Origin: Clostridia bacterium
GTDB taxonomy: Bacteria > Bacillota > Clostridia > Christensenellales > UBA1242
DNA: 49,254 nucleotides
Assembly (NCBI GenBank): GCA_017452165.1
Contig: JAFTMY010000037.1
Coordinates: 1 to 49,254 of the forward strand
Direction of reading: 5' to 3'
A program made the translations under genes and the position numbers. Positions 11,218-44,700 of this stretch are shown one piece after another. Numbering within the stretch: the first letter of the stretch is position 1; the number at the start of each line of letters is the position of its first letter. The notes under the pieces were generated by a model that did no database searches, was not told the origin of the DNA, and saw only the letters and a list, made by a program, of their open reading frames with translations.

Positions 11218-11253
11218 AATGCTGTATAATTATAACTAGGGGAAGATGATTTT

Positions 11254-13182: not shown

Positions 13183-13235
13183 AAAATGAAAATTTATTAA
13201 ATAATAAATAAATTAAATAATAAAGGGGGTCTTAT

Positions 13236-13922: not shown

Positions 13923-13938
13923 AAATCAAATAAATAAA

Positions 13939-13976
13939 AAAAACTATTGCAAATTAGAGCAATAGTTTTTTTTTAT
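13939..13976. terminator. Bidirectional terminator between convergent genes
   Basis: AAAACTATTGC (13940-13950) and GCAATAGTTTT (13959-13969) form an 11-bp stem with an 8-nt loop. T-runs follow on both strands. It serves the plus-strand operon and glyQS. Confidence 0.9.
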
Positions 13977-14001
13977 TTATTTAATATAGTTAACAAATTT
14001 A

Positions 14002-15384
14002 TTAAAACATAATCTTTTCTTCAACATATTTGATGAGTTCATCAACTGTCATTCTAACTTGTTCCATTGTATCACGGTCACGAACAGTAAATGTCTCATT
14101 TTCAAGTGTTTCAAAGTCTATTGTAATAGAGTATGGTGTTCCGATTTGGTCTTGTCTACGATATCTCTTACCAATTGAACCTGATTCATCATATGTGCAC
14201 ATAAATCTTTTAGAAAGTTTTTTGTAGATTTCTCTTGCTTTTTCACCTAAATTCTTTTGAAGTGGTAAAACAGCAACTTTGTATGGAGCGATTGCTGGGT
14301 GGAAGTGGTAAACAATTCTTGTATCACCACCTTCAAGTGTTTCTTCATCATAGAATTCGCAAAGAACTGCAAGAGTAAGTCTGTCAGCACCGATTGAGTA
14401 TTCTACATCATGTGGAATATATTTTTCGTTTGTCATTGGGTCGATATAGAAGAGGTTTTTACCTGAATATTCTTGGTGTTGAGCAAGGTCATAATCAGTT
14501 CTATAATGAATACCATTAAGTTCGTTCCAACCAAATGGATATTTAAAGATAATATCACAAGCAGCCTTAGCATAAAAGGCGAGTTTTTCGTGGTCTTTGT
14601 AGTTTAAGTGTTCTTTGTTGAATCCAAGGTCAAGAAGGAAATCCATTGCTTCTTTTTTGTATTCTTCATAATATTTGAAGCCTTGTTCTTCATTTTTACA
14701 GAACCATTGATGTTCCATTTGTTCAAATTCGATTGTTCTAAATGTGAAGTTTCCTGGTGTGATTTCATTTCTAAATGCTTTACCAATTTGACCAATTCCG
14801 AAAGGAACTTTTGCTCTTGCTGTTCTTTGAACATTGAAAAAGTTTACAAATTCACCTTGAGCAGTTTCTGGTCTAAGATAAATAACATCATTTGAATCTC
14901 CTGTAATATCACGGCTTGTTTGGAACATTAAGTGGAATTGACGAATTGGTGTCCAGTTGAAATTTCCACAGATAGGGCATTTTACTTTATGTTCGTTAAT
15001 GTATGCTTCCATTTCTTCATTTGTCATAGCATCAACATCAGTTTCGCCCTTAGAGTATGCTTCAATTAAGTTATCGGCTCTCATTCTTGCTTTACATGAT
15101 TTACAATCCATCTTTGGGTCGGTAAATGATGCAACGTGTCCAGATGCTTCCCAAACTTTAGGATTCATCATAATAGCAGCATCTACACCATAACTGTTTT
15201 CAGATTCTTGAATAAATCTCTTCCACCAAACTTTTTTAATGTTGTTTTTAAGTTCAACACCTACTGGACCATAATCCCAAGTGTTAGCAAGTCCATCATA
15301 GATGTCAGAGCCAGGGTAAACAATACCTGTTGTTTTACAATGAGTAACAAGTTTTTCCATTGTAAGTTTGTTTTTTTCTTCCAT
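14002..15384 (-). CDS. glyQS: Glycine--tRNA ligase, single-chain dimeric type
   Basis: 460 residues, the length of the alpha2 (eukaryote/archaea-like) class II GlyRS rather than the two-subunit bacterial form. It charges tRNA-Gly. It opens MEEKNKLTMEKLVTHCKTTG. Visible features are YPGSDIYDGLANTWDYGPVG, the CKSC...CPIC metal-binding cysteines (about residues 92-141), motif 2/3 regions with YLRPETAQGEFVNFFNVQRT, GIGQIGKAFRNEI and the C-terminal anticodon-binding domain with GSIGKRYRRQDQIGTPYSIT. The ATG at 15384 follows TTAGGAG. The leader carries a glycine T-box, so expression is expected to respond to uncharged tRNA-Gly. Confidence 0.96.
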   Translation of the reverse strand: MEEKNKLTMEKLVTHCKTTGIVYPGSDIYDGLANTWDYGPVGVELKNNIKKVWWKRFIQESENSYGVDAAIMMNPKVWEASGHVASFTDPKMDCKSCKARMRADNLIEAYSKGETDVDAMTNEEMEAYINEHKVKCPICGNFNWTPIRQFHLMFQTSRDITGDSNDVIYLRPETAQGEFVNFFNVQRTARAKVPFGIGQIGKAFRNEITPGNFTFRTIEFEQMEHQWFCKNEEQGFKYYEEYKKEAMDFLLDLGFNKEHLNYKDHEKLAFYAKAACDIIFKYPFGWNELNGIHYRTDYDLAQHQEYSGKNLFYIDPMTNEKYIPHDVEYSIGADRLTLAVLCEFYDEETLEGGDTRIVYHFHPAIAPYKVAVLPLQKNLGEKAREIYKKLSKRFMCTYDESGSIGKRYRRQDQIGTPYSITIDFETLENETFTVRDRDTMEQVRMTVDELIKYVEEKIMF

Positions 15385-25335: not shown

Positions 25336-26376
25336 ATGAAAAGATTTATATTATTTATTCTTACCATTGCATTACTTGGTGGCATTGGTTATACTGGCTA
25401 TGTAATTTTTAGTTCAAAAAATATTTCTAAGGTTGAAATTGAGGGTAATGTTCAAACAATTTATTTGTTAAATGAAACTGATACTCCTGATTTTCAAGAT
25501 GCAAAACTTAAAATCACTTACAAAAGTGGCGATGTAAAATATCTTGATATGGCAACAATTGGTGAAAAAATCACTGTTGACAACTTTACAACATCACTTG
25601 AAGCAAGTGAAACTATGAAAATTACATATAAATCACAACTTATTACTATTGATTATAAGGTTATTAAATCTGGACTTTATTATATGAGTTTTAAAGAATC
25701 AACAACTTCAACTGGAAGCAAATCTACTCAAAGATATACTATTTCTAAAACTCAAAATTTTTATAATTTAGGTGAAGATGGTGTTTTAAAATATTATCAT
25801 TATGATGGAAATAAAGGTAAGTGGTTTTTGTATGATGGAAAATATTTAAAAAATTATAAGTATGAAATAGTAAATGATAAGGTTAATATTTATCTTGGTA
25901 GTGATAAACCATCTTATGGTCTTCAAGCAGAAGCAGTTAATGGTGAAATTGTTGTAACTTCAACAAATTACTTATATGATGGTGAGTTCCAAACTGGTAA
26001 AAATGTCTTTGGTTTTACTCAATATCAAATGAAAGATAATATAGAAATTACTTCAGCAAAACTTTATAGTGATAACTTTATTACTAATACAGATGTGTCT
26101 TCAGAAGAATATTTATCTTTCGTAGCAGGTGATAATTTAGACACTTCAAGTAATAGATTATACATAAAAGTTAACTATTCAAGTCCATTAATTTATACTG
26201 CGTCAGCATCAAATCCTACTCAAATGATTAATATGCTTGGCGAGGTTTATGTTGTTTTAGATAATTCTATGACAAATAATACACTTATGACAGCACTTGT
26301 TCGTCCTTATATTTCTACTTGTTATGTGTATTATGAGACTTGGACATTACCATTTAGTTACATTGTAGTTCCATAA
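25336..26376 (+). CDS. Membrane-anchored extracytoplasmic beta-rich protein
   Basis: 346 residues. The N-terminal KRFILFILTIALLGGIGYTG YVIF segment (residues 2-25) is a signal anchor without a lipobox. Residues about 30-115 look like an Ig-like fold of the bacterial surface kind (KVEIEGNVQTIYLLNETD, AKLKITYKSGDVKYLDM). The remainder alternates strands rich in Tyr, Asn and Thr (YYHYDGNKGKWFLYDGKYLK, YGLQAEAVNGEIVVTSTNYL). I cannot assign a named family. It has its own promoter and terminator, immediately before the exporter/Ig-lipoprotein operon, and the shared Ig-like character suggests a related envelope role. Confidence 0.75.
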   Translation: MKRFILFILTIALLGGIGYTGYVIFSSKNISKVEIEGNVQTIYLLNETDTPDFQDAKLKITYKSGDVKYLDMATIGEKITVDNFTTSLEASETMKITYKSQLITIDYKVIKSGLYYMSFKESTTSTGSKSTQRYTISKTQNFYNLGEDGVLKYYHYDGNKGKWFLYDGKYLKNYKYEIVNDKVNIYLGSDKPSYGLQAEAVNGEIVVTSTNYLYDGEFQTGKNVFGFTQYQMKDNIEITSAKLYSDNFITNTDVSSEEYLSFVAGDNLDTSSNRLYIKVNYSSPLIYTASASNPTQMINMLGEVYVVLDNSMTNNTLMTALVRPYISTCYVYYETWTLPFSYIVVP

Positions 26377-26400
26377 TTTTGTGGTTAATATAAAAGCAAC

Positions 26401-26440
26401 AAGAGTATGTTAAATTCAATATAAACATACTCTTTTTTTT
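26401..26440 (+). terminator. Terminator after the anchored beta-rich protein
   Basis: AAGAGTATGTT (26401-26411) and AACATACTCTT (26424-26434) form an 11-bp stem, followed by a T-run. Confidence 0.92.
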
Positions 26441-26487
26441 GTGATAAAATTTAAAGAATTGGGTTGTTTTATAACTTAAATAAAAAT

Positions 26488-26507
26488 TTTAACTATATAT
26501 AGTTAAA
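26488..26507. repeat. Perfect 20-bp palindrome upstream of the exporter operon
   Basis: TTTAACTATATATAGTTAAA reads identically on both strands. It lies about 105 bp upstream of the operon's -35 box in an otherwise featureless AT-rich gap (26441-26610). It could be an operator or chance in AT-rich DNA. Confidence 0.45.
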
Positions 26508-26610
26508 TTATTAAAGAAGAATAAAAATAAATTGTGTGCAGATACTAAATAAAAAAAATAGTTATTAATAAAAATAATTCGACAAAATTATATAAAATTA
26601 AGCATTATTG

Positions 26611-26639
26611 TTGCAATTGATACTGATTTGTATTATAAT
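26611..26639 (+). promoter_or_regulatory. Promoter of the exporter/Ig-lipoprotein operon
   Basis: TTGCAA at 26611-26616, a 17-bp spacer and TATAAT at 26634-26639. No other terminator or promoter is evident until 36018, so five genes appear to be one transcript. Confidence 0.8.
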
Positions 26640-26671
26640 ATCTATACTATATTTGTTTTAGGAAGTAAAAA

Positions 26672-28111
26672 ATGTATCCAATTATTATTTTTGTGGCATC
26701 AATTTTGGTTATATGCCTTTCTTTATTGTGTTTTCATAAAAAAACTGATGACAAATTTAATAAGTTTTTAAAAATATTTACAATAACATTTTGTGCTATT
26801 GGTTTTTTTAGATTTTTTTTATCAGATTCATTTGTTTTTGTTATAAATGGTGCAAGTTTTAACGGCACATATTATGATGTTACCGATGTTCTACAAACTG
26901 TTCTTCGTTGGGGATATTACTTAAATTATGTAATACTTCCAATGGCTATTTTTTTTGATAGTAGACTTTTTAAAAATATTGCTTGCTATGTTTGTTTGTT
27001 TTTCTCATTACTTTCAGCAGTATTTTTTAATAATTATATGGAATATTTTTTATCTCCAAAAGGTCAAGGACTTCATTTATATGACTGGTTTAGATATTTC
27101 TATTTTATTTTAGAACTTGTGATGGCGATTTCGATTCCTGTTATTATGCAGGTTCGTCAAAAATATTTCTTTAATTATTTAGATAAAAAAGAGTGGGCTA
27201 ATTTCTTAATTTCGTTACCATTTATTGTAATTGCATTGATGCCAGCATATGTCCCACAATCATTAATTGGTTATTCATCTCTTATTCCAACAGTTGGTTC
27301 GGTGTATCATATTGGTTGGATAACCTTATCTGTTGTTTTAATAGTAGTGTTTTATCATATTTTTAGATTTAAAGATTATAAAACAAGATATATGTTTTGT
27401 GTTTTTTTAACTTTAGCATTGTTTTTCCATTATAATTCCATTTTCTTAATGGGTATTACAATACCTCGTTTACCAATTCAACTTTGTAATTTAGCGGCTT
27501 ATATTTATATAATTACTATTCCATTTAAACTTAAAAGAACTTTTCAGTTCAGTTATATTGTAAATATTGCAGGTGCTATAGTTGCTTATGTTGTTTCAGA
27601 CTTCTCAGGTGGTGCTTTTGGTTTTTGGAATATGCACTTTGTTTATGAACATACCTTTGTTTTAATGGTGCCTGCTCTTACAATGGCGTTAAGAGTTTTC
27701 CCAAGAGTTGAGAAAAAGTCACTTAAATATGCATTTATTGGTTTTTCAATATACTTTATTTTATGTTGGATAACCGGAACAATTTTAAATGGGTTTTCAG
27801 ATAAAATTGGAACAACTGTAAACTACTTTTTTATGTTCGACCTTAAAAAAGCCTTTGGTTTTTTCCCGTTTTTAACTTTTTCGGGAAATTATTATATTGA
27901 AATTGGTAGATTTATAATTTATCCTGTGGTTTCTCTTATAATTTATGTGGCATTTTCAATACTTTATTTGTTATTTTATGGATTTACTAGATTTATGTAT
28001 AAATATGAAGATGACCATATTGAACTTAGAAAATCGGGAATAGATTTATTAGAAAAAATGACAAAAAGGAAATTTAATATTCCTAGAGATTTCCAAAAAA
28101 CTAATGAGTAG
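26672..28111 (+). CDS. Polytopic membrane protein, YwaF-like (TIGR02206-like) repeat
   Basis: 479 residues with about 12 hydrophobic segments across the chain. The ATG follows AGGAAG. The segment TIPRLPIQLCNLAAYIYIIT (about 270-289) and the later NMHFVYEHTFVLMVPALTMA match the pattern of YwaF-type integral membrane proteins: LPxxLC, then a conserved His/Tyr-rich loop. The two halves may be internally related. It begins an operon with an ABC-2 exporter and Ig-domain surface proteins, ahead of the ATPase by 12 bp. A role in export or in attaching the products is inferred from position only. The family has no established function known to me. Confidence 0.65.
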   Translation: MYPIIIFVASILVICLSLLCFHKKTDDKFNKFLKIFTITFCAIGFFRFFLSDSFVFVINGASFNGTYYDVTDVLQTVLRWGYYLNYVILPMAIFFDSRLFKNIACYVCLFFSLLSAVFFNNYMEYFLSPKGQGLHLYDWFRYFYFILELVMAISIPVIMQVRQKYFFNYLDKKEWANFLISLPFIVIALMPAYVPQSLIGYSSLIPTVGSVYHIGWITLSVVLIVVFYHIFRFKDYKTRYMFCVFLTLALFFHYNSIFLMGITIPRLPIQLCNLAAYIYIITIPFKLKRTFQFSYIVNIAGAIVAYVVSDFSGGAFGFWNMHFVYEHTFVLMVPALTMALRVFPRVEKKSLKYAFIGFSIYFILCWITGTILNGFSDKIGTTVNYFFMFDLKKAFGFFPFLTFSGNYYIEIGRFIIYPVVSLIIYVAFSILYLLFYGFTRFMYKYEDDHIELRKSGIDLLEKMTKRKFNIPRDFQKTNE

Positions 28112-28123
28112 GAGAAAATAGTC

Positions 28124-28867
28124 GTGTTAGTAGAAATTAAAAACTTAACTAAAAGTTATGGTAATTCGCAAGTAAAAGCAGTTGATGATTTATCAATTTC
28201 TTTAAATTCGGGTGAAATTTATGGTTTCCTTGGCTCAAATGGTGCAGGTAAAAGCACTACAATTAAGTGTTTAGTTGGAATTTATCCTTTTAATTCAGGT
28301 GATATTTTAGTCGATGGTGTTTCAATAAAATCAGACCCACTTAGCGCTAAAAAATTAATAGGTTATGTTTCAGATAATCACGCAGTTTTTGAGAGACTCA
28401 CAGGTAGAGAATATGTAAATCATATAGCAAACTTGTATAATGTAAAAGTTGAAGATATGCAATCTCGTTGTGATAAACTTCTTAAAATATTTAACCTTGA
28501 AAAACACTTTGATAAGCCAATTAAGAACTATTCACATGGTATGAAACAAAAAATAACAGTTATTGCAGCACTTGTTCATAACCCAAAACTTTGGGTTTTA
28601 GATGAACCATTGACTGGTCTTGACCCACAGAGCGCTTTCCAATTAAAAAAGGTTATGAGAGAACATGCAAATGAAGGAAATACTGTATTTTTCAGTTCAC
28701 ATATCTTAGACGTTGTTGAAAATCTTTGTGATAGATGTTGCATTATTGAGCAGGGTAAACTTAAAGGTGTTTATGATATAAATGAAATTAAAAACAATAA
28801 GCAATCGTTAGAAAAAATATTTATGAACGAAGTTTCAGAAGACTTGGAAGATGAAGGAGAGATGTAA
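28124..28867 (+). CDS. ABC-2 type exporter ATP-binding protein
   Basis: 247 residues from a GTG at 28124, with GGAG overlapping the upstream stop (28111-28114). The domain is a standard ABC ATPase: LVEIKNLTKSYGNSQ, Walker A GSNGAGKSTTIKCLVG (about 37-52), signature YSHGMKQKITVIAALVH, Walker B LWVLDEPLTGLDP and the switch His in FFSSHILD. The C-terminus has a short acidic tail. It energises the adjacent permease, whose ATG overlaps this stop codon by one base. The class exports drugs, polysaccharides, peptides or lipids. The substrate here is unknown. Confidence 0.93.
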   Translation: MLVEIKNLTKSYGNSQVKAVDDLSISLNSGEIYGFLGSNGAGKSTTIKCLVGIYPFNSGDILVDGVSIKSDPLSAKKLIGYVSDNHAVFERLTGREYVNHIANLYNVKVEDMQSRCDKLLKIFNLEKHFDKPIKNYSHGMKQKITVIAALVHNPKLWVLDEPLTGLDPQSAFQLKKVMREHANEGNTVFFSSHILDVVENLCDRCCIIEQGKLKGVYDINEIKNNKQSLEKIFMNEVSEDLEDEGEM

Positions 28868-30468
28868 TGACAAATATTTTAAATCTTCTCAAACTTCAAA
28901 TTGACAACCAAACAGATATTTTAAAGACTAAAACTCCTAAAAAAATGTTAGTAGCGCTTTTTAAAGTTGTTTTACTTTTAGCATTTTTGGTTGTTTTATC
29001 ATGGTTTGTTGAATCAAAGATTTTTATACTTGGTATAAAAATAAATGCAGAACTTATTGGAATTATACTTTTAATTACACAAATTATTTCACTTCTTTTT
29101 TCAATAGGTCATATAATTAATACTTTGTATTTAAGTAAAGATAATGAAATGCTTATATGCTATCCTGTTACAGCAAATCAATTATTTATTTCAAAAATAC
29201 TTCTTATTTATTTAAAAGAAATTGCTGTGAATTCAATAATTACTCTTCCAATCTTTATTTGTTTAGGATTAATGGGAAAGTTAGGTGCAAGTTTTTTTCT
29301 TTCTTTAATTATATTTTTATTAGTTTTACCAATACTTCCAATTGTTTTGGCATCATTTATTAGTATTATTGTTATGATGATTACTAAATTTTTGAAAAAA
29401 CATACAATCTTAGCAATAATAACAATTTTATCGCTTGTTTCAGCCTGTATTATTTGTTACATATTACTTGTAGGTAATATTATGGAAACATTTAATATTG
29501 CAACAAAACAACTTGAAACTGTGAGAGAAATAAATAAAAATATAGAAATATTTGGTAAATATTTAGTTATTTATTATCAACTTGGGCTTGCTATGGTTAG
29601 TTTTAAAAAGTGGTATTATATTGGATTATTTATTCTTATTTGTGCTGTATTATTTATTATTACCATTTCAATTATTAAACCATTTTATTTAAAAGTTGCA
29701 ATGTCTAGCATGGAAAATAGTTCTAAAACTAAATACAAACAAGGAACGTTTAAAAGTTACAATCCTTTTTTAAGTTTAGTTTATAAGGAAATGAAATGTA
29801 TTTTCAGGTCTCCATCGGAAATTTTTGATTTCTTTTTGTTTACACTTCTTATGCCGTTTATTGTATTTTCCTATGACAAAATGCTTATGTCTATTACTGT
29901 AAATCAGGCAGGCGTTAATATGATTGCAGGTTCACACGTTATGGTTGTTGCAATACTTGCAATGTTATCTAATATTATTTCTGCTTCTGCTGTGTCTAGA
30001 GAAGGTCGTAATTTCTATATTTCAAAGGTTATTCCAGTTAATTATTATACACAGATTTTTGCAAAACTTACTTTTAATGTAATATTTACAATTGTTTCAT
30101 TATTTGTAACAATGATTATTTCATTTTTCATTTATCCAGTATGGCAAATAATTCTTGGAACTATTGCTGTAATGTTTTTTTCAATAGGACATGCAGCGCT
30201 TAGCATTGATATGGATATTAAAAAACCAGCCAGAAACTTTGAAGGTGATGGTAAGTCTTCTAGTGTAAGTAAAAGCACAACTGCTAGTATTATATATGCT
30301 TTATTGTTTGGATTTTTAATTGGTTTTATTATTATATTAATGTCTTCTTATGAAAAAGTCGTTGTTCCTTATCTTATAATTGTTGCTATTGGACTTGTGT
30401 TTATGCTTTATAGACTTTATATTTTAGTCCTTAGAATCAATTTACAATATGATAAAATAGAAATGTAG
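28867..30468 (+). CDS. ABC-2 type exporter permease (ABC_tran_2-like)
   Basis: 533 residues, with the start ATG overlapping the ATPase stop (TAATG). About 12 membrane spans are visible. The first pair is near residues 27-48 and 58-83, followed by the cytoplasmic loop LYLSKDNEMLICYPVTANQL, typical of large ABC-2 permeases of Firmicutes in which the two halves are fused. Residues about 275-310 form a soluble loop. Further spans run to the end. It pairs with the ATPase upstream, and an Ig-domain protein starts 10 bp downstream. Confidence 0.88.
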   Translation: MTNILNLLKLQIDNQTDILKTKTPKKMLVALFKVVLLLAFLVVLSWFVESKIFILGIKINAELIGIILLITQIISLLFSIGHIINTLYLSKDNEMLICYPVTANQLFISKILLIYLKEIAVNSIITLPIFICLGLMGKLGASFFLSLIIFLLVLPILPIVLASFISIIVMMITKFLKKHTILAIITILSLVSACIICYILLVGNIMETFNIATKQLETVREINKNIEIFGKYLVIYYQLGLAMVSFKKWYYIGLFILICAVLFIITISIIKPFYLKVAMSSMENSSKTKYKQGTFKSYNPFLSLVYKEMKCIFRSPSEIFDFFLFTLLMPFIVFSYDKMLMSITVNQAGVNMIAGSHVMVVAILAMLSNIISASAVSREGRNFYISKVIPVNYYTQIFAKLTFNVIFTIVSLFVTMIISFFIYPVWQIILGTIAVMFFSIGHAALSIDMDIKKPARNFEGDGKSSSVSKSTTASIIYALLFGFLIGFIIILMSSYEKVVVPYLIIVAIGLVFMLYRLYILVLRINLQYDKIEM

Positions 30469-30478
30469 GTGAGGTGTT

Positions 30479-31399
30479 ATGAAGAAAACGGTAATTATAA
30501 TTTTAGCCATACTACCAATATTTTTAGTTATAACAATTTCATTTGCAGGAAAAATTTTATCTTTATATCAACACATTGCCGTTGAAAAAGTTAGATTTGT
30601 AGATGAAAGTAATAAAGAATTTGAACCAGACTATATTTTAGTTTTAAGTGTGGGGGAAGAAAAACAAACAAATGTAAGAGTTTATCCAGACCTTGCATCT
30701 AATAAAAAAGTTACATATATTTCAGACAATGAGAGTGTTTGCACTGTAAATCAAGAAGGAGTGGTTAAAGGTGTTTCATTTGGAACTTCTGCAATCATTG
30801 TTAAAACTGAAGAGGGAAGCAAAACTACTATGCTTGTCGTAAAAGTAACTCAAGATAAGGTTTTAGGTGTAACTCTTTCTCATGAGACATTAGATCTAAA
30901 AATAGGTGAAAGTAAAGTATTAACTGCAACTGTAGAAGCGTATGTTGCTCTTAATAAAAAAGTAATTTTTACTTCTAATGATGAAACAGTTGCTACTGTT
31001 AATGCAAATGGAAAAGTTGAAGCGGTTGGTATTGGTCAAGCAATAATAACTGTAACAACAGAAGATGGTGGTTTTACTGATACTTGCGTGGTAACTTGTA
31101 TAGAAGGTATTCCAGCACTTCAATTTGATTTATCAAATGATAGTAATTTCGTAAAAAGCGGAAAAGGATATATTGTGTATATTAAAGAAATCGACTTACT
31201 TAATTATTTAAAGTTTGACGATAAAAAGGTTGATATACAAGAAATTAAGTTCAGAATCAAGTCAGGTGGTAGTTCTGCTAGTTTAACTGGTGATAAACTA
31301 ACAATAACTGGTAAGGGCATTATAACAGTTGTTGCTTATGTTGGAGAGCAAAATGATCCAACATATCAAACAGAATTACGTATGATGATTCAAGATTGA
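30479..31399 (+). CDS. Membrane-anchored protein with two bacterial Ig-like (Big_2) domains
   Basis: 306 residues behind GGTGAGGTG. The N-terminal span, residues 4-24, is a signal or anchor without a lipobox. Domain 1, about 35-120, has LSVGEEKQTNVRVYPDLASN, SDNESVCTVNQEGVVKGVS and FGTSAIIVKT. Domain 2, about 123-205, has LDLKIGESKVLTATVEAY, SNDETVATVNANGKVEAVG and IGQAIITVTT. These are textbook Big_2 features. The C-terminal 100 residues hold a third, diverged beta domain. It is extracytoplasmic. It sits between the exporter and the large Ig-repeat lipoprotein and is likely part of the same surface system. Confidence 0.88.
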   Translation: MKKTVIIILAILPIFLVITISFAGKILSLYQHIAVEKVRFVDESNKEFEPDYILVLSVGEEKQTNVRVYPDLASNKKVTYISDNESVCTVNQEGVVKGVSFGTSAIIVKTEEGSKTTMLVVKVTQDKVLGVTLSHETLDLKIGESKVLTATVEAYVALNKKVIFTSNDETVATVNANGKVEAVGIGQAIITVTTEDGGFTDTCVVTCIEGIPALQFDLSNDSNFVKSGKGYIVYIKEIDLLNYLKFDDKKVDIQEIKFRIKSGGSSASLTGDKLTITGKGIITVVAYVGEQNDPTYQTELRMMIQD

Positions 31400-31452
31400 T
31401 TAATAATTTAATCAAAATTTACTCAAACTAAAAAATATCAAAGGAGAAAAAT

Positions 31453-34400
31453 ATGGGGATTTTAAAGAAATTTTCTTTGCTACTTTGCTGTTTTATGATG
31501 ATGTTTACATTTACAGCATGTGGTGGAGGCGAAAAAAGTTTAATTCTTTCATCAGATAAAGATTTCGCTTATCGTGGTGATGTTGTAACTTTCTCAGTAA
31601 ATTTAAAAGATGAGAAAGATAAAACATACACAGTAGAAGAAGTTGTTTATGAAATTGTATCTGGTGGCGAATATGCAACTATTAGTGGAAATACTTTAAC
31701 AATCAAAGATGATGCATTGCCAGGTGCTGTAGTTGAAGTTATTGCTAAAGCAGAAGAAAAAGTTTCAAATAAAGTTAAAGTTGAAGTTAATGTGCCACTT
31801 ACAGACATTGTTATATCTGCAAATGGTTTAACTAACATTGAAGCAGGCGATTTTGTTCCTTTAACAATGGAACTTAATCCTGAAATTTCAAATGTTTCAA
31901 AAGATGATATTAAATGGGTAATCGTTGAAGGTGCAGATCTTTGCATTATTTCAAATGATATTCTTTTTGTAAACAAAAATGCTTCAACAAATGAAGTTAT
32001 AAAAATTAAAGCTCAATCTAACACCTTATCAAGTAATGTTTTAACATTTACTGTTGGTTATGCTCTTGAAAAGATTGAGTTAGATGTTGTTGGTTCATTA
32101 AGTATTGAACCAGGTAATTCAAGAGCCTTAAAAACAACACTTACACCATCTAATGCTACTGATGTAAACATTGAATGGGTGTTTAGTGAAGGTCAAAATT
32201 ATTGCTCAATTTCTAATAATATCATTACTATTAATGATGATGTTGAAATTGGAACAATTATTAAAGTTAAGGCAAAAAGTGGCTCAGTAGAAAGTGAAGA
32301 AATCACAATTATTGTTGGAACTCCTGTGACTAAGATTATAATTAGTGCTGTTGGAGCAGATAAAGTTATCACAACAAACACAGTTTCATTAAATGCAAGT
32401 GTAGAACCACAAAATGCTTCTACTGTTGGTATTGAATGGAGTGTTACAGAAGGCAAGCAATATGCTCAAGTTGTTAATAATACACTTGTTATTAAGTCAG
32501 AAACTCCATATGGAACAATTATTAAGGTAAAAGCAAAGAGTGGTTTAGTTGTAAGTGAAAATGAACTTTCAGTTCAATATGGTGTTGCTGTAACATCTGT
32601 TACAATTGACACTGTTGGTTCTCTTGAAGTTATTACAAACAATACAATTGGTTTAAATGCAGTTGTAAACCCAGTTGATGCAACAGAAAAGACTATTAAT
32701 TGGAAAGTGACACAAGGTAGTGAGTATGCTGAAATTTCAAATAATGCACTCGTAGTAAAAGCAGGAACACCTTATGGAACAATAATTAAAGTAAAAGCAA
32801 CATGTGATGGCATTGAAAGTAATGAACTTTCAGTTCAATATGGTATTAAATTAAAATCTCTTGAATTAAATGTTTCAGGTTCATCAAATATTGAACCAGG
32901 AAACACAAGAGCACTCTTAACAACTCTCACACCAGAAAATGCAACAAATGTTGTTGTTGAATGGGTAACACTTGAAGGTGAAGGTTTATTCTCAATTTCA
33001 AATAACATCATATCAATTAATAGTGATGCTGAAATTGGTTCAAAAATCAGATTAAAAGCAAAGAGTGGCACAGTAGAAAGTAACGAAATCACAATCATTG
33101 TCGGAACACCTATTACAAAAATTACAATTAGTGCTGTTGGTGTAGATAAAATAATCACAACAAATACAGTATCATTAAATGTAAGTGTAGAACCACAAAA
33201 TGCAAGTGCTATAGGTGTAAACTGGAAAGTAACACAAGGAAGTGAATATGCAGAAGTTGTAAATAACACACTTGTAATAAAAGCAGGAACACCTTATGGA
33301 ACAATTATAAAAGTAAAAGCAGAAAGCGGAACACTTGAAAGTGAAAACGAACTTGAATTCCAATATGGTGTAAAAGTAGCATCTGTAGTAATTAATACTG
33401 CTGGTTCACTTGAGGTTATTCATGTAAATACAGTAGGTCTTAATGCTACTATAAGCCCATCAAATGCAACAGAAAAAACTGTTACTTGGAGTGTTACTGA
33501 AAACAGTGAATATGCAGAAATTTCAAACAATGCACTCGTAGTAAAAGAAGGAACACCTTATGGAACAATAATTAAAATAAAAGCAACAGTTGATGGCGTA
33601 GAAAGTAATGAACTTTCAGTTCAATATGGCGTTGCAGTAACATCTGTTACAATTAGTGCAACAAGTGAAGTAATTGTAAGTGGTAATACAGTAGGTTTAA
33701 ATGCAGTTGTTAATCCTTCAAATGCGACAGAAAAAACTGTTTCTTGGATGGTAATTCAAGGTGCAAATAATGCTGACATTGTAAATAATACACTTGTAGT
33801 AAAAGCAGGAACACCTTATGGAACAATAATTAAAGTAAAAGCAATATGTGATGGCGTAGAAAGTAATGAACTTTCAGTTCAATATGGTATCGCAGTAAGT
33901 TCTGTTGTAATTAGTCCTGCAGGTTCTCTTGAAGTTATAAAAGGTAATTCAGTAGGTTTAAGCGCTGTTATTAATCCATCAGATGCAACAGAAAAAACTG
34001 TTTCTTGGACAATTACAGAAGGAAGTTCTTATGCTGATATTGTATCTAATACTCTTGTTGTAAAAGCAAATGCTGAAACTGGTGCTATAATAGTAGTTAA
34101 AGCAACAGTTGATGGCGTAGAAAGTAATGAACTTGAATTTGTAGTAAAAGCAACTAAAGAAGAAGAAAATGCATCTAAATTTATGATTAATGTTTCTGAA
34201 GAAAATATTAAACTTGATAAAAATGCAAACTTCTCTCCAGTTTTAGAGGTTGAACTTTATGACTATAACTTTGAGCCTGTAACAGATAAAGTTATTACTT
34301 ATAAAATTGTTGAGGGTGAAGAGTTTTTAGCAATTTCTCCTAATGGTTATAACTGTAATTTTGAAATTCTTGGACATGGAAATGCAACATTAGAAGTTGG

Positions 34401-35982
34401 TATTCAAGGTTATAGTGAAAAGACAATAGTAAATGTAAGTGTTGTCTTACCACCAGAAAAGATAAACATTCCTGAAGTATTTACTGAGAGAACAGGTTAT
34501 GTGTATAATTTCTCTAAGTTAAATCCAAGCAACTCAGCAGTTGAAACTCTTCCATTTATTGCAACTGCTACAGGTACAAATGTTTGTCAAGATATAAAAT
34601 ATACATTTATGCATGAAGACGGAACAAGTGGTGATTTAGTTGCTACTTGGAACGATGGAAGAATTACATTTAATAAAACAGGTAAAATAACTGTTATTAT
34701 TTCATCAGATTCTGGTAGTAGAATTGAAACAACAACATCTTATTCATTTAATATTAATGAAGGATTTAATGTTTATACATTTGAAGAACTTCAAGCATTA
34801 GCATTAAGTTCTAAATATAACGGACAACCAATTAACATTGTTGTTTTAGAAAGACCTGATGGTAGTGCAAATAACTATGAATATGGTTTTGATTTAGTTT
34901 CACCTGCAGGTTTAAAGGCTAAATTAGAGCAAACCTTTGATGATGTATTTACAGCGAAAGGTGGATTTGCAAATGGTCAAAGAATTAACTTTGTTTGCAA
35001 GAGTGTTCATATTAATGGTAATAAGCACAAAATTGACCTTTCTCAAGTAAGAAAAATTAAAAAAGAAGAAATTGAACCATTAGTTGCAAATGGAAGACTT
35101 ACTGCTGATTGGAAGAATTTTGATGCTCTTATTTCAATTATTCCTTGGACAAATGATACAAATGTTATTTTAAAAGGTTCTTATGAAGCAAAAATTTATG
35201 ACTTTGAAGTTGTAGGAAATTGCTCAGTAGACCATGGTTCTACAGAAGATGGAGGAGAATTTTCTGGAACAAAGCCATTTGGTGTTGTTTCAACAGGTAT
35301 AACAATTGGCGCTATGGGACATGAAGTTAAATATTATGTTGATATTAATAATCTTACAACATCAGGTTTAAGAACTGGTTTATCTGTTAAAAAGGTTGTT
35401 GGTAATGGTTTAGTTCAAAATATTCATGCATATAACTGCTTTACAAATGGCATTGAAGTTGGTGCATCTATTGTTAGATTAAAGAATTTAAAATTCGGTA
35501 GTTGTGGTGCTGCTTCAATTGAGTTACTTCCAGCGGATTCAAATGCAGCAGGTGAAAATTTTGATCAAAAACAAAATGTTTCATTTGAAGGATATATGGA
35601 TGTTGAGCAAAACTTAAATAATGGTAATACAACATATTTTGCTAATTATCAAGTTTTAGGAACTACAATACCATCAGTAGTTGAGGGATTACTTACTCAA
35701 TATGATGTAACACAAGGTTCTCATATGAGAAATGAAAAGGGTGAATATATATTTGTTTGCTTTAATTTAGCAGATATGACAACATTCTATCCAAATCATT
35801 CAACTTATAATTATCCTGCATTCCAAGAAGGTGGTATTATAAATGCAAGAGATTTACCAAAAGATGGAAACGCAGTGGATACAACTCATCAATATATTGA
35901 ACTTGATGTTGACCTTACATTTATGGGTGGAAGCAATATTGGTAAAGCAATTCTTTACAACCATCATTATCAAGGCAATTAA
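31453..35982 (+). CDS. Large Ig-repeat surface lipoprotein with beta-helix-like C-terminus
   Basis: 1509 residues with AAGGAG before the ATG. Residues 1-23 are a lipoprotein signal (KKFSLLLCCFMMMFTFTACG); the lipobox is FTAC with Cys23, processed by Lgt. From about 30 to 1000 there are 10-11 Ig-like modules of 86-88 residues. Each has the plan VTSVTI...NTIGLNAVVNP.. (strand pair), TEKTINWKV, a Tyr/Ala-Ile-x-Asn-x-x-Leu strand, GTPYGTIIKVKA and ESNELSVQYG. Six of these are two copies of a three-module block. Residues about 1080-1509 are different: FNVYTFEELQALALS, then NGNKHKIDLSQV and short Asn/Gly turns. They look like a right-handed beta-helix, perhaps binding polysaccharide. No catalytic triad is evident. 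It is last in the exporter operon. Confidence 0.88.
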   Translation: MGILKKFSLLLCCFMMMFTFTACGGGEKSLILSSDKDFAYRGDVVTFSVNLKDEKDKTYTVEEVVYEIVSGGEYATISGNTLTIKDDALPGAVVEVIAKAEEKVSNKVKVEVNVPLTDIVISANGLTNIEAGDFVPLTMELNPEISNVSKDDIKWVIVEGADLCIISNDILFVNKNASTNEVIKIKAQSNTLSSNVLTFTVGYALEKIELDVVGSLSIEPGNSRALKTTLTPSNATDVNIEWVFSEGQNYCSISNNIITINDDVEIGTIIKVKAKSGSVESEEITIIVGTPVTKIIISAVGADKVITTNTVSLNASVEPQNASTVGIEWSVTEGKQYAQVVNNTLVIKSETPYGTIIKVKAKSGLVVSENELSVQYGVAVTSVTIDTVGSLEVITNNTIGLNAVVNPVDATEKTINWKVTQGSEYAEISNNALVVKAGTPYGTIIKVKATCDGIESNELSVQYGIKLKSLELNVSGSSNIEPGNTRALLTTLTPENATNVVVEWVTLEGEGLFSISNNIISINSDAEIGSKIRLKAKSGTVESNEITIIVGTPITKITISAVGVDKIITTNTVSLNVSVEPQNASAIGVNWKVTQGSEYAEVVNNTLVIKAGTPYGTIIKVKAESGTLESENELEFQYGVKVASVVINTAGSLEVIHVNTVGLNATISPSNATEKTVTWSVTENSEYAEISNNALVVKEGTPYGTIIKIKATVDGVESNELSVQYGVAVTSVTISATSEVIVSGNTVGLNAVVNPSNATEKTVSWMVIQGANNADIVNNTLVVKAGTPYGTIIKVKAICDGVESNELSVQYGIAVSSVVISPAGSLEVIKGNSVGLSAVINPSDATEKTVSWTITEGSSYADIVSNTLVVKANAETGAIIVVKATVDGVESNELEFVVKATKEEENASKFMINVSEENIKLDKNANFSPVLEVELYDYNFEPVTDKVITYKIVEGEEFLAISPNGYNCNFEILGHGNATLEVGIQGYSEKTIVNVSVVLPPEKINIPEVFTERTGYVYNFSKLNPSNSAVETLPFIATATGTNVCQDIKYTFMHEDGTSGDLVATWNDGRITFNKTGKITVIISSDSGSRIETTTSYSFNINEGFNVYTFEELQALALSSKYNGQPINIVVLERPDGSANNYEYGFDLVSPAGLKAKLEQTFDDVFTAKGGFANGQRINFVCKSVHINGNKHKIDLSQVRKIKKEEIEPLVANGRLTADWKNFDALISIIPWTNDTNVILKGSYEAKIYDFEVVGNCSVDHGSTEDGGEFSGTKPFGVVSTGITIGAMGHEVKYYVDINNLTTSGLRTGLSVKKVVGNGLVQNIHAYNCFTNGIEVGASIVRLKNLKFGSCGAASIELLPADSNAAGENFDQKQNVSFEGYMDVEQNLNNGNTTYFANYQVLGTTIPSVVEGLLTQYDVTQGSHMRNEKGEYIFVCFNLADMTTFYPNHSTYNYPAFQEGGIINARDLPKDGNAVDTTHQYIELDVDLTFMGGSNIGKAILYNHHYQGN
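32065..34153 (+). repeat. Tandem Ig-module repeats with a 786-bp higher-order duplication
   Basis: Module starts are at 32065 (A), 32326 (B), 32590 (C), 32851 (A'), 33112 (B'), 33376 (C'), 33637 (C'') and 33895 (C'''). The intervals A-A', B-B' and C-C' are all exactly 786 bp (262 codons). C-type modules share long near-identical DNA around the encoded PYGTIIKVKA. Confidence 0.9.
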
Positions 35983-36017
35983 TAAATTTAAACAATTAAA
36001 TTTGTTTTCCAAATAAT

Positions 36018-36054
36018 AAAAAATAGTTTACTTTTTTAGTAAACTATTTTTTAT
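36018..36054 (+). terminator. Terminator of the exporter/Ig-lipoprotein operon
   Basis: AGTTTACT (36025-36032) and AGTAAACT (36038-36045), extended by A/T pairs on both sides, end in a T-rich run. Confidence 0.9.
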
Positions 36055-36138
36055 TGCAAACTATATAAAAAATTTAATTTTGGCATAATAAAAATTATAA
36101 TTATGTATTATTTTTATTTTTTAATCAATAATTAATGT

Positions 36139-36861
36139 ATGGCAATAATGGCAATAAGGTCAATAATTATATATTTTTGTGTTATTATCGTGATTAGGCT
36201 TATGGGAAAAAGGCAAATTGGTGAAATGCAACCGTTTGAGTTTGTAATAACTTTGATTATTGCTGACCTTGCGTGTATTCCAATGGCAGAACTTTCAGTT
36301 CCACTTGTTCACGGAATTGTTCCCATAATAACACTTTTAATTTTTCATTTTTTGATATGTGTGATAGCACGAAAATCTTTGTTTGCTAGATATTTAATCT
36401 CTGGTAGACCTGCAATAGTAATTAGTCCAAAGGGCATAAATTATAACGAATTAAAATCACTTAATATGACACTTGATGATTTAATGGAACTTATTCGTGG
36501 TTGTGATGTTTTTAAAATTGAAGAAATTGCTTATGCTATTTTAGAAACAAACGGCAAACTTTGTATCTTAAAAAAGGCAGAAACTGAGCCTGTTACAAGA
36601 GATGATTTAAACATAAATGTAACTGAAAATTCTTTACCTATAAATCTTGTTATGGACGGACAATTAATGGACGATAATATGAAAATTGCTGGTGTAAATA
36701 GAGAATTTATTGACATTTACTTAGAAAAGTCAGAGATAAAAAAGATAAAAGAAGTGCTTTTAATGACTCTTGATAAAAGTGGTCTTGTTTTTATTCAAGG
36801 AAAATTTGGAGACAAATATTATACTTTTCAATCTGATTTTCAAGGTGGTGAAAAGTGGTAA
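36139..36861 (+). CDS. DUF421 (YetF-like) membrane protein
   Basis: 240 residues. Three N-terminal spans (about 3-20, 35-55, 58-78) are followed by a cytoplasmic domain. The hallmark is VIRLMGKRQIGEMQPFEFVI near residues 19-38, the signature of the YetF/DUF421 family. GRPAIVISPKGINYNELKSL and MTLDDLMELIRGCDV are further conserved pieces. The family includes spore and membrane-stress proteins of Bacilli/Clostridia, and its molecular role is not established. No clear ribosome-binding site precedes either candidate ATG (36139 or 36148). A -35/-10-like pair (TTGGCA 36080, TATGTA 36102) lies upstream. The next gene overlaps its end by 7 bp, the usual DUF421-DUF4363 arrangement. Confidence 0.9.
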   Translation: MAIMAIRSIIIYFCVIIVIRLMGKRQIGEMQPFEFVITLIIADLACIPMAELSVPLVHGIVPIITLLIFHFLICVIARKSLFARYLISGRPAIVISPKGINYNELKSLNMTLDDLMELIRGCDVFKIEEIAYAILETNGKLCILKKAETEPVTRDDLNINVTENSLPINLVMDGQLMDDNMKIAGVNREFIDIYLEKSEIKKIKEVLLMTLDKSGLVFIQGKFGDKYYTFQSDFQGGEKW

Positions 36862-37250
36862 AGAAATGGGTAGTAATGGTTGCTTTGACTATAATTTTAG
36901 TTGTGGGGTGTGTTTATGAATCAAAATATATTCACTCGTCATTTTCAGGTCTTATTAATTCACTTGAAACACTTCAAATCGAAATTACAGAAAATAAAGA
37001 AAAGATTGATACAGAAGAACTTATAACTAAATCTTATAATCTTCATGATAAATGGCATAAAAGTATTAGAGGAATTAAGTGTATGATTTGGCATACTGGA
37101 GTAAAAGATATTGAAGTAGGTTTTGCTAGAATTGCCGCTTATGTTGAAGAAAATGAGTATGCTGACGCTTATGCAGAGATTGCTTCGCTAATTGATTATA
37201 TAGCACATTATTTAGATGATTTTAAAATATCAATAGAAAATGTTTTATAG
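36855..37250 (+). CDS. DUF4363 family protein
   Basis: 131 residues from a GTG at 36855 with GGTGG upstream, overlapping the preceding gene by 7 bp, which implies translational coupling. A short N-terminal span (VVMVALTIILVVGCVYESKY, about 6-25) anchors a four-helix-like extracytoplasmic domain (LETLQIEITENKEKIDTEEL, then helices to the end). DUF4363 proteins regularly follow DUF421 genes in Firmicutes, consistent with a two-component membrane module. Function is unknown. Confidence 0.85.
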   Translation: MVKKWVVMVALTIILVVGCVYESKYIHSSFSGLINSLETLQIEITENKEKIDTEELITKSYNLHDKWHKSIRGIKCMIWHTGVKDIEVGFARIAAYVEENEYADAYAEIASLIDYIAHYLDDFKISIENVL

Positions 37251-37275
37251 AATATAAAATTCTAAAATATAATCA

Positions 37276-37317
37276 GTGAAAAAAAAGAACCCTATTATAA
37301 ATAGAGTTCTTTTTTAT
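37276..37317. terminator. Terminator between convergent DUF4363 and the minus-strand operon
   Basis: AAAAAAGAACCCTATT and AATAGAGTTCTTTTTT form a long stem with one mismatch and T-runs on both strands. Confidence 0.82.
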
Positions 37318-37322
37318 GTTTT

Positions 37323-38405
37323 TTATAATCCAAATTCATTACCACTAAATGATTTGTTTTGTTTTTTATCATTAAAAGATAAAGAGTTAAATACCTCGTT
37401 GAGATGTTGTTTATCCCAACTAATTAAAAAGTTAATAAGTGTATCTTTTGGGCAATTATTTAATTCAGCAAGTTTAAGAAGCATTGATAATTCTTCTTTA
37501 GTTGTTGTTGAATAAGGGGAGTCGATAACTGAAATAAATGTATTAAAAACTTCGCCTTTACTTACAAAATTAGATGAAATAAACTCATAGATTTGATTTT
37601 TTAGATTATCATCACAACCTAAAAGAACTAATGAGCCAATTCTACAATTAAATCTATTTTCATATGCAAATCTTTCATTAGACATTGGACTACAGTTCTT
37701 TGTGTCATTGATAAATTCTTGTTTTATTTTATCAAAAGCATCATAAATAAAATTAGGATTTTGACTTAAAAATGAATTAATTTGTGTAGTTGCACGGACA
37801 TTATCTAAATTTTCTCTATCCCATCTTAGTTGAACTTGGTTAATACATCTATCAATTAATCTCTTAGTGCTGTTTTGAGATGGTTGTGTTTTTGTGATAT
37901 TATTTAAAGAATTAAACAATTCCATTGCACATTCACTACCAACATCTCGTGCTTGCTTTTCTTTTTGTGATGTGTAGTAAAATAAAAAAGGGCTTATTCC
38001 TAAAATTTCTGGTGGCATAAATCTTTCATCACCATAACATCTTTCAAATGGAAACTTTGCAGGTTTTGAAGTTCCAATTCTTTTTTTATCATTAGTTTTA
38101 TCTTGATGAATGTGTGTAAGTTCATGATAAATTGTTGAAACAGTTTTAAATAAGGTATTTTTGTCCATTTTTCTTAGGTTAAGTGTTACAGTGTTGTCCA
38201 TAGAAGAAGCAAAACCTAAGTTATTCTTTTCATCATTAACAAATTTTAGTTTACAATCAGGGCTATTTAATTGTTTTTTTGCTATTTCAAAAAGTTCAAT
38301 AGCAAAATTTTTAAAGGTCTCATTTTCCATATGAGGCTGTGTATTTAAAATATCAAAACATTTTTGATAATCATTTAATGTTGCTTTATTCCAAATTTTT
38401 TCCAT
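37323..38405 (-). CDS. Putative zincin-like protein (HExxH)
   Basis: 360 residues with no signal peptide, so probably cytoplasmic. A helix TIYHELTHIHQ carries HELTH (His94, Glu95, His98), the zinc-binding and catalytic motif of gluzincin/zincin families. About 50 residues downstream, SQKEKQARDVGSECAMELF offers Glu149 as a plausible third ligand in an E-x-x-A pattern. Residues 60-83 (LKFVNDEKNNLGFASSMDNT, then VTLNLRK) resemble the edge strand that often precedes the catalytic helix. The C-terminal half is helical and unassigned. I do not recognise the family. An inactive relative is possible. The ATG lies 57 bp downstream of the flippase stop, so the flippase is not its co-transcribed partner in the expected order. 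Confidence 0.72.
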   Translation of the reverse strand: MEKIWNKATLNDYQKCFDILNTQPHMENETFKNFAIELFEIAKKQLNSPDCKLKFVNDEKNNLGFASSMDNTVTLNLRKMDKNTLFKTVSTIYHELTHIHQDKTNDKKRIGTSKPAKFPFERCYGDERFMPPEILGISPFLFYYTSQKEKQARDVGSECAMELFNSLNNITKTQPSQNSTKRLIDRCINQVQLRWDRENLDNVRATTQINSFLSQNPNFIYDAFDKIKQEFINDTKNCSPMSNERFAYENRFNCRIGSLVLLGCDDNLKNQIYEFISSNFVSKGEVFNTFISVIDSPYSTTTKEELSMLLKLAELNNCPKDTLINFLISWDKQHLNEVFNSLSFNDKKQNKSFSGNEFGL

Positions 38406-41709: not shown

Positions 41710-44700
41710 TTATAAGAAACCTTCATCTCCGTTTGAATTCTTTGTTTCAGCAGTTTCAGCAGATGCTTCTTCTGTTTCTTCAGTTGGAGTTTCATTAGAA
41801 TCAGTAATTGATTCTTCATTAGAAGATTCATCATTAGTTTCTACTGTTGTTTCTTCTACTGTAGCAGGAGTTTCTTCGTTTGTTTCTTCTACTGTAGCAG
41901 GAGTTTCTTCAGTTGTTGTATCTAATGAAACATTTTTATTTGCTTCATATTTTGCTTTTTTCTTATCTTCTTTTTCTTTTACTTTTGTATCAACTTTGTT
42001 TGGATTAACAACGATGATATCTCCTTCAACTTTATGTTTAGAAGATTTAATAGGGTGTTTCTTAATGAAGATTGCAACAAGTGCAATGATAAGAACAATA
42101 CCTAAGAGGAGAGAAGAGAAGATATAGAAGAATGTTGCCCAAATTGATGAATCCTCATCTTCTTCTTCAGTTGTTTCATCTTTCTTAACTTCTTCTGTGC
42201 CATAGAATCTCTTAGCGATAGAAGATGAATCATTTTCTTTGTATAATTCTTCATTTGCTTCACAATACTCATTAAATAATGTTTCGTTAGCAAGTTTTTC
42301 AAGAGAAATACCAGCAATGATTGCATATCCAGAGCAAGGTGATTTTTCAGAACCGAGTGAGAATTTCACTTTAAATTCTGAGTAAGAACTTGTGTTTGTT
42401 TTAAGCCAAAGTTCATAGCATACGAAACCATTTTCATCAGCGTTCTTAGATTTTGTTGTATCAATGTTATTCCAGTTTACTGTAACTGCATCAACAGAGA
42501 TATTTAAACCACTTTCGCCATTCTTAGCAACAATTTCACTTGTTTTAACATAAATCTTAAGAACATAGAATGAAGATTTTGCTACAGAATCAAGTAATCT
42601 TGGAGATACTACAGTGTAATCTGTTGTATATCCATTTGAAAGAATAAGAACATTTTGTGAATAATTGTTGTTTAATTCAGAACCAGGAATTACTTGATTA
42701 TTTAATTCAATATCGTTATTGAAATTATATGTGTAATTATTTTTGTTTACTGTTGTAGTTGTTGTGTCAGTATCATTAAATGTAATTTTAACTGTTGAAC
42801 CATTTTTAGTAATTGTATAGTTACCAAGTTCATTGTTATCAGCCTTTTTATTCTTATTTAAGTCAAAACCTGCAACTTCAACAGTGAACATTGAATCACT
42901 ATAAAGTTTAAATGTTGTTGTTTCGCCTTCTTTAACTTCTTTAATATAGAAAATATTATCAGCATCAGTTTCAGATGTATAAGTATTTTCTTTTTCTGAT
43001 TTTAAGAATAATACATCTTTAATTTCAGCAGTGTAGTGTGTAGATGTTGTTTTTGAGTAGTAGTTAGCAACAACAGTTCCAGTAGCACCAACTGTGTATC
43101 CAGATGTGTTAACGCTTGTATTTGTATAGTTAGAACTATTAAATACACCATTTTCTTCTTTATTTGAGTGAATAGAGAAGTTATAGTCACCTAAATTAAT
43201 AAATTGATAGTTAGAAAGTGAAGGGTAGTTATAAATAGAATCGGTTGATGTTTCAACATTTTCGCTAGCATCAACAATAGCGTCTCTTGCTTCATCAATT
43301 GATTTGTAAGTAGATGTTGCATTTGTAACTTTTTGGAAGAAACAAGTTCCAACTGCATCTTCAACACCAATTTCAATATAAACATTAGTAGAAGCAGAAC
43401 CACCCATAATATAGAATGTAAATTTATTCCAACCTTCTTGTAAATCATCGCTAGAAACTTTGAAGTTAGTTAAGATATTAGCATCAGAAACTGAACTAGA
43501 GTATAAGTTAGCAATCATATTACCTTTAAAGTTATAACCAGCGTAGAATTCAAATGACATTTCATAAAGAGTTCCTGATGAAAGACTAGTAGATGATGAA
43601 TAAATTGCATAGTTGTTTGTTACATTATATTCTTTACCGTCTTCACCATGAATAGATGCTTTTGCTTTATCTGGAGCATAGATAGCGAAGAGATTGCTAT
43701 CAAAACCATTTGTAGGAACTTTTGATACTTCAATATCTTTTTCGCTTTCTGCTTTATTATATTTTGTGTAGAAGTTGTCATTGTTTGAATTGTTCCAATA
43801 ATCTTGAGATGTAGGAACAACACCTGCAATAACATTTTGAGATGCTGTTTTTGATTTTGTCCAACTTTCAACGTCAAATGGTTTTGTATAATCAACGTCA
43901 ACATAATCAGTTGTAAGTGTCATTAAGTTAAAGTAACCATTTGTGATACCTTTGTTAAATACAGATTTAGAAGGTGAGAGAGCAAGACAAGTTGTAAGAT
44001 TTTCAGAATCTGAATTTGCTTTATCATAAGTTGTGCTATTTACTTTTTCAATTGTGATATTGTCAAAATAAACAGTTGAATCAGCGTCAGCAAGTAAAAC
44101 TACATTAACATCTTGGTTGTGATAAGCATTTCCTTCAATATAGAAAGAAACAGGGATCCAACTATATTCATTAGTTGGTTTTGTTGTGTAATCAGCAAGA
44201 TAAGCACTTACTTTAGAGTTACTAGCAGAAACTAAAGAACCTTGGTTTGTTGTTCCTGCAGTGTATAAGATTGATTCTAATTTAATAGTTGCAGTAGATT
44301 CTTTCTTTGGAGAATAAATCCATACTGTAACTTTATAATATTCATTTTGTTTTACAGTAAATGTGTTAGAAGCAATACCAAGAGATTTTAATCTATCTTT
44401 GTTTTCAATTTTGATAACTTGGTTATTAGAGATAAATGTGCTGTCGATAGTAGGAACATCATTTTTATTATCTTCTTCTTTCTTGTCTTCTTCCTTATTA
44501 TCTTCTTCTTTTTTATCTTCCTCTTTGTCTTCTTCTTTCTTGTCTTCTTCTTTAATAGTTTTATCAATAGTTGATTCTTCAACTACAGAGATTGAAACTT
44601 TTTTATCTGTGTATGCTTGTTGATAAGCCTTTAAGATATCATTGTTTCCTTGACCAGAATGTTCTCTACTAATATAGTAGTGCCAATCAGAGTGAGAAGT

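Follow-up and report, generated by a model that had tools for sequence, protein, structure and literature searches.

A conserved operon of Clostridia that combines a TMEM164/YwaF-type membrane protein, an ABC exporter and surface proteins

Introduction

Some ATP-binding cassette (ABC) complexes of the bacterial envelope, such as GldAFG and LolCDE, work with extracytoplasmic partners, and neither of these is known to have an acyltransferase subunit. Here we describe an operon that also has extracytoplasmic partners and that adds an acyltransferase-like protein. It occupies positions 26672-35982 of contig JAFTMY010000037.1 (GenBank assembly GCA_017452165.1) from a Clostridia bacterium (Christensenellales, UBA1242), and the whole analysed stretch of that contig (49,254 nucleotides, forward strand) is called the window throughout. 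In order, its genes encode a polytopic protein of 479 amino acids (aa; Y, 26672-28111), an ABC ATPase (A, 28124-28867), a permease (P, 28867-30468), a small immunoglobulin (Ig)-domain protein (B, 30479-31399) and a 1509-aa lipoprotein (LP, 31453-35982), all on the + strand.

Y carries a TMEM164/YwaF-type domain (PF14808). In humans, TMEM164 transfers an acyl chain from one phospholipid to another (PMC10474074), and LhaT (YpjA, DUF1405) of Bacillus, which has been assigned to the TMEM164 (ATGY) superfamily, N-acetylates lipoproteins from outside using a lipid donor (PMC12345273). Among bacterial relatives, LhaT is the only one for which we found a published reaction. It resembles Y in superfamily, in the extracellular-side acyl transfer proposed for Y and in its lipoprotein context, but no ABC partner is named for it in the discussion of that paper (PMC12345273). 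Short YwaF proteins, which are stand-alone proteins of 253-290 aa in the loci compared, share with Y the family domain and an invariant Cys and His (7/7 short YwaF), whereas Y is longer by about 200 residues at its N-terminus, a stretch with six predicted helices, and is usually fused to an ABC ATPase. ABC exporters with a PF16949 permease are the closest match on the transport side: P scores over the family cut-off, and there is one ATPase and one permease gene. What sets the operon apart from them is that the ATPase bears an acyltransferase-like domain and that the exporter comes with paired exoproteins.

The main parts belong to known families, and it is their combination that seems to be new. 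We propose, with a probability of roughly 45%, that the operon encodes an ABC exporter coupled to an outer-leaflet acyltransferase of the TMEM164/YwaF type, with dedicated surface partners. A preliminary description of the locus, made from the window alone, suggested that the system had not been described before. This is consistent with our literature search, which returned no description of this combination within the searchable literature (most subscription papers and preprints lie outside its reach).

Conservation in related genomes

A search of 148 relatives, this genome among them, detected Y in 46, and we fetched the surroundings of the matches in the other 45; the census also took in G312, from a sample of the class, and the stand-alone case G101. 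It comprises 55 Y open reading frames (ORFs): 42 fused to an ATPase, three split from an adjacent ATPase gene, three long but with no ABC gene adjacent, and seven short YwaF. Counting the window, there are thus 45 ABC-linked long Y; in 42 of them, Y and the ATPase are one polypeptide, with the ATPase on the Y C-terminus, and they are next-door genes in the remaining three (the window, L086 and L036). A permease gene comes next in 42/45, and the other three loci (L076, L078 and L111) stop at contig ends.

Five of the 42 permease-bearing modules (L043, L048, L057, L072 and L074) were set aside, as fewer than 600 bases follow their permease gene; two of these still show a small anchored protein. 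In all 37 modules with more than 600 bases, an exoprotein gene lies downstream of the permease. For 34 it was recognised by a profile of LPC, the beta-helix-like exoprotein domain of the fused modules; a test of higher sensitivity revealed the domain in the window and L036, and in L086 the exoprotein is a lipoprotein cut at the contig end. A small anchored protein followed by a separate large exoprotein is found in 29/37 (the small ORF of L075, 211 aa, is not convincing). The other eight (L039, L040, L041, L044, L049, L058, L060 and L077) have a single LPC protein of 746-1102 aa, without a lipobox, 3' of the permease. These single exoproteins seem to be small-protein-plus-LPC fusions that replace the pair of anchored protein and lipoprotein, judging by an N-terminal anchor and Ig-like segment in the sequences inspected (all except L049, L060 and L077). 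Two of the eight modules contain a significant match to the window's B (L040 and L049, the latter with an uncertain start).

The nearest relative is L086 (CAMOXE010000086.1, uncultured Clostridia bacterium), which has the same five genes in the same order and a Y that is 63% identical. Its contig ends inside LP, and it was the sole relative returned by a scan of genome contigs; scans of viral contigs with exoprotein and fused Y-A queries gave no relatives. Because the gene order recurs in related genomes, it is more than chance. That the five genes work together had been proposed from gene order in the window, and the recurrent co-occurrence in related genomes, together with the Y-ATPase fusions, strongly supports it. 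That the set forms one functional unit is well supported.

Distribution and the genus-level site

Of 297 genomes sampled from the order, 47 match Y at E 1e-20, and 38 fused-size frames occur in 36 genomes of ten families; in fetched loci, the Y-ATPase fusion was verified in seven families. A class-wide sample gave matches in 12/291 genomes at E 1e-10, with the sole fused-size frame in the window's own family and with lengths of 253-287 aa outside the order. The phylum sample gave 5/299, all of 259-310 aa except the window. Since matches outside the order are short, the Y-exporter module is seen in only one order in these samples. The permease profile has matches in 92/148 relatives, many in Y-less settings.

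Within the window's genus, none of the seven other genomes has Y. The operon is flanked by a 346-aa ORF (25336-26376) and a YetF-DUF4363 pair (36139-37250), and in the three genus mates read at this site (G002, G003 and G005), these flanking genes are direct neighbours, separated by no more than a short terminator-like stretch, which makes this a presence/absence site for the operon. The patchy pattern is compatible both with gain here and with loss elsewhere. The base composition of the operon resembles that of its flanks. We rejected the idea of a contaminant contig, as the window's UvrA is 76-86% identical to the best pieces in 7/7 genus mates and the flanking gene order is shared with the three that were read.

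Patchiness of this kind, with Y missing from all seven genus mates and the operon absent at the same place in three, is what one might expect if this were an ordinary ABC exporter operon, with the neighbouring genes co-transcribed merely by chance. However, a fusion verified in seven families, with fused-size frames in ten, speaks against this explanation, which is already contradicted by both the fusion/permease census and the downstream exoprotein census. We regard it as hardly credible.

The Y protein

Residues 213-409 of Y match positions 6-202 of Pfam TMEM164 at 49.5 bits (cut-off 25), and residues 1-212 match no Pfam family. About 13 helices are predicted for Y, and the averaged hydropathy of 45 aligned long Y (43 ABC-linked plus the stand-alone L037 and L038; L062, L074 and L110 were too short to include) has 13 peaks. 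Because Y runs on into the ATPase in most relatives, its C-terminus is assumed to be cytosolic, which puts the odd-numbered loops inside. With loop borders drawn from the same alignment, the density of lysine plus arginine is 0.246 per residue inside vs 0.051 outside, and it is higher inside in 45/45 sequences.

Four residues are invariant in the 45 aligned long Y: Pro268, Cys272 (codon 27485-27487), Asn298 and His327 (codon 27650-27652). The Cys and His are also invariant in 7/7 short YwaF; in that comparison, slicing left one long sequence with a gap at the His position. The predicted location of Cys272 and His327 is near the extracellular ends of helices 9 and 11, respectively, an outer-face location that follows from the loop charge and from the C-terminal fusion to a necessarily cytosolic ATPase. 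The catalytic residues of human TMEM164 are reportedly C123 and H181 (Reed and colleagues, 2023), although a literature search for one of the two residues found no paper. Cys272 and His327 may be their counterparts. The preliminary description's label for Y, "YwaF-like", is right about the domain but understates a protein of about 13 helices with an invariant Cys/His pair.

The direct fusion to the ATPase could also mean that Y has no enzymatic role here and instead gates or stabilises the ABC transporter, as a membrane domain of a receptor-like or structural kind. This would suit its first 212 residues, which have no Pfam family, and its sub-threshold match to the acyltransferase model TIGR02206. 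Invariance of Cys272, His327, Pro268 and Asn298 in 45/45, with the Cys and His extending to the short YwaF, is instead the pattern of a catalytic site. We consider a non-enzymatic Y very unlikely; Y is probably catalytic.

The exporter

A matches Pfam ABC_tran and has a Walker A motif (GSNGAGKS), an ABC signature (YSHGMKQ) and a Walker B motif (LWVLDE). P is a 533-aa permease of the ABC_tran_2 type (PF16949), which it matches at 29.8 bits against a cut-off of 25.7. Both assignments agree with the families first proposed for these genes. A reading of the locus as a defence system was dropped, as PADLOC matches the ATPase only, and generically.

The surface proteins

B contains two Big_2 stretches and an N-terminal hydrophobic segment, has no lipobox, and is probably anchored in the membrane by that segment. 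LP has a lipobox by pattern (FTAC, residues 20-23, with Cys23), and Lgt is encoded in the window (5114-5833), which is what one looks for in a bacterial lipoprotein. LP then has ten clear Ig-like repeats (residues 42-896; 31576-34140), plus a weak eleventh fragment, including tandem 258-base units at 33245-34134 which are about 76% alike. The nearest relative, L086, has three clear repeats in its partial LP. Such differing copy number suggests that the length of the LP stalk changes by recombination.

The C-terminal domain of LP (residues 1104-1509; 34762-35979) is homologous to LPC. An initial profile comparison, based on a smaller set of sequences, gave little signal (67 columns, probability 1.9%). 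A stronger test, with a trimmed region, a larger family profile and a shuffled control, gave E 6.7e-11 for the LPC profile (built from a hit list without the window's LP) against the LP C-terminus, the best of 1000 shuffles reaching 0.12. With hhalign, the same pair scored 97.4% over 227 columns. The L036 exoprotein matches the LPC profile more weakly (E 7e-4). In the reverse direction, a profile of the window and L036 C-termini found only three further proteins at E<1e-4 (in L096, L039 and L060), and a search with the LP C-terminus of the window alone gave matches in only 4/148 genomes, this one included.

Both exoproteins match Pfam Big_2, and the first assignments of B as a Big_2 protein and of LP as an Ig-repeat lipoprotein have been borne out. 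The preliminary description also gave prominence to the giant Ig lipoprotein, which is not the constant part of the system, as the Ig stalk varies in copy number. By sequence comparison, the recurring exoprotein parts are the C-terminal beta-helix-like domain and the small membrane-anchored Ig protein.

The beta-helix fold is frequent in carbohydrate-active proteins, which leads to another explanation: the exporter would carry a lipid-linked glycan outward for acylation by Y, and LP would bind or cleave this glycan with its beta-helix-like head. Among 12 LPC members, there are weak matches to Beta_helix (2/12, best E 9.1e-4) and Pectate_lyase_5 (1/12). However, we noticed no constant glycosyltransferase neighbour in the fetched loci (from ORF listings, with no family search of the neighbours), and the characterised relatives of Y act on lipids and lipoproteins (PMC12345273, PMC10474074). 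The "glycan-handling" role first suggested for the operon has found no direct support, and a lipid or acyl function fits the parts better; we consider glycan export and acylation unlikely.

A pattern-matching lipobox is present on the exoprotein in 26/37 modules; three of the two-gene modules miss the pattern, including L080, which shows SAGC. Lgt is encoded in 59/60 relatives (this genome counted). LolCDE extracts lipoproteins, and it provides a model for a further explanation, lipoprotein tailoring and release, in which the lipoprotein encoded alongside would be N-acylated by Y at its alpha-amine, much as LhaT acetylates lipoproteins, with the ABC part either bringing acyl donor to the outer leaflet or extracting the finished lipoprotein. 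In favour of this, LhaT is a TMEM164-superfamily protein that acts on lipoproteins (PMC12345273), and the Cys/His pair of Y is predicted to be extracellular. Against it, 8/37 modules combine Y-A with a single anchored exoprotein that has no lipobox, although lipoproteins encoded elsewhere in those genomes could still serve. The Bacillus route is missing too: the LhaT family (PF07187) is over its cut-off in 0/60 relatives, with no match in this genome, and PcrB (PF01884) is matched at E<=0.001 in 8/60, never at full length and not in this genome, with the one match over the cut-off spanning 48 of 226 positions. That search covered LhaT and PcrB, so other lipoprotein N-acyltransferases and Lol components fall outside it. 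The related idea of Ac-HepG as acetyl donor was dropped because PcrB and LhaT are missing. Lipoprotein tailoring is the main rival to our reading; weakened by the eight modules without an adjacent lipoprotein and by the missing LhaT/PcrB route, it seems to us a doubtful account of the operon.

Exporter modules without Y

Y-less modules (L047/L095, L096, L097, L098, L099, L101, L102, L108 and L109) resemble the operon in having A, P and anchored exoproteins in the same order; unlike the window, they have no Y nearby. They are nine of 11 Y-less modules chosen among the permease matches, and in these nine the exoproteins lie directly 3' (the other two are L100 and L103). Giant exoproteins of 1719-2093 aa lie 3' of the permease in two Y-less modules (L047 in G018, 3138-14491; L099, 513-6794). 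Because Y-less modules with anchored exoproteins exist, Y is not needed for the pairing of exporter and exoprotein, and this pairing may be the older one, with Y an added enzyme-like part.

In a tree of A+P, rooted by us on L103, the window groups with L086, L036 and the Y-less L096 (the second module of G009) in a clade with local support of 0.999 beside the fused modules, and the other Y-less modules fall outside the Y modules; L074 is labelled Y-less in this tree only because a contig end cuts its Y. The Y tree, for which L110 served as root, places the split Y together with two stand-alone Y in a clade (0.993) beside the fused Y. Both trees part the window type from the fused modules, so Y and A+P share the same deep split. 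The position of L096 suggests loss of Y there or a separate gain in its neighbours; either the split form or the fusion could be the older state. In L037 (8781-11020), a short YwaF and a long Y lie in tandem with no ABC ATPase or permease match alongside, and a long Y may therefore act without an exporter.

Operon borders and neighbouring genes

The ORF listing confirms the five genes, their order and coordinates, and the short or overlapping junctions of the preliminary description (12, -1, 10 and 53 bases, from Y to LP). Upstream, the unit is bordered by a terminator-like hairpin 3' of the 346-aa ORF (26401-26434, + strand; fold z -6.4, 0/200 shuffles). The single terminator proposed near 36018 corresponds to a strong hairpin at 36014-36056 (+ strand; -18.1 kcal/mol, z -8.4, equalled by 0/200 shuffles), which forms the downstream border. 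The three internal junctions with a gap, which are those that were folded (the overlapping one was left out), gave z-scores of -1.97, 0.18 and -1.65, none of them near the strength of the border hairpins. A consensus terminator scan over 25500-37500 reported no terminator, presumably missing the 3' hairpin because its stem has few G-C pairs. As for the promoter proposed at 26611, a consensus match is present (TTGCAA-17-TATAAT, 26611-26639, + strand, 10/12), but the region contains 66 such matches vs a shuffle mean of 76.9; since they are no commoner than in shuffles, the site is plausible but weak evidence alone.

Elsewhere in the window, 41710-48555 (- strand) encodes a giant protein of 2281 aa for which no Pfam family scored over its cut-off. 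It starts with a signal-like segment and has a hydrophobic segment at the C-terminus as well as an acidic tail. ORFs of at least 1920 aa occur at the corresponding place in genus mates L104, L105 and L106, matched by position and not by sequence.

Proposed mechanism and implications

Sequence comparison provides the unit, its conservation, the Y-A fusion, the single-gene exoproteins and the invariant pair; from these we infer catalysis by Y, a transport direction, a substrate class and roles for the exoproteins. The five proteins would form one envelope machine, with the exporter (A and P) physically coupled to Y and to the extracellular partners B and LP. Powered by ATP hydrolysis in A, P would bring an amphipathic substrate, such as a lipid, a lysolipid or a lipid-linked molecule, to the outer leaflet. 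Cys272/His327 of Y would there add an acyl group to the substrate or remove one from it. The product would be received, bound or displayed at the surface by B, which would sit next to P through its membrane anchor, and by LP, with its Ig stalk and beta-helix-like head.

Several results weigh against an exporter coupled to an acyltransferase. Y scores 38 bits against the NCBI model for TMEM164-related integral membrane acyltransferases (TIGR02206), below its cut-off of 75, and a sequence search of solved structures gave no match for Y or LPC. The AlphaFold models of Y (from an alignment of the window and L086 only; mean pLDDT 39.6) and of the LP C-terminus (from a single sequence; mean pLDDT 32.1) are unusable. 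Three long Y (L037, L038 and L110) have no adjacent ABC gene, exoproteins accompany Y-less exporters, and Y is missing from the seven genus mates.

If the coupling of exporter and acyltransferase is nevertheless correct, an ABC exporter and an extracellular-side acyltransferase are tied together in one protein. Long YwaF-type proteins would also have a function, and an envelope system would be defined for this order. In the Bacillus lipoprotein work, the route of the acetyl donor to the outer face is described as unclear (PMC12345273). More tentatively, the operon may represent a new class of ABC machine, in which a single Y-ATPase polypeptide, working with a dedicated permease and a surface receptor, both flips a lipid or lipid-linked substrate and adds an acyl group once it has arrived; such a machine would show for one lineage how acyl groups reach chemistry outside the membrane.

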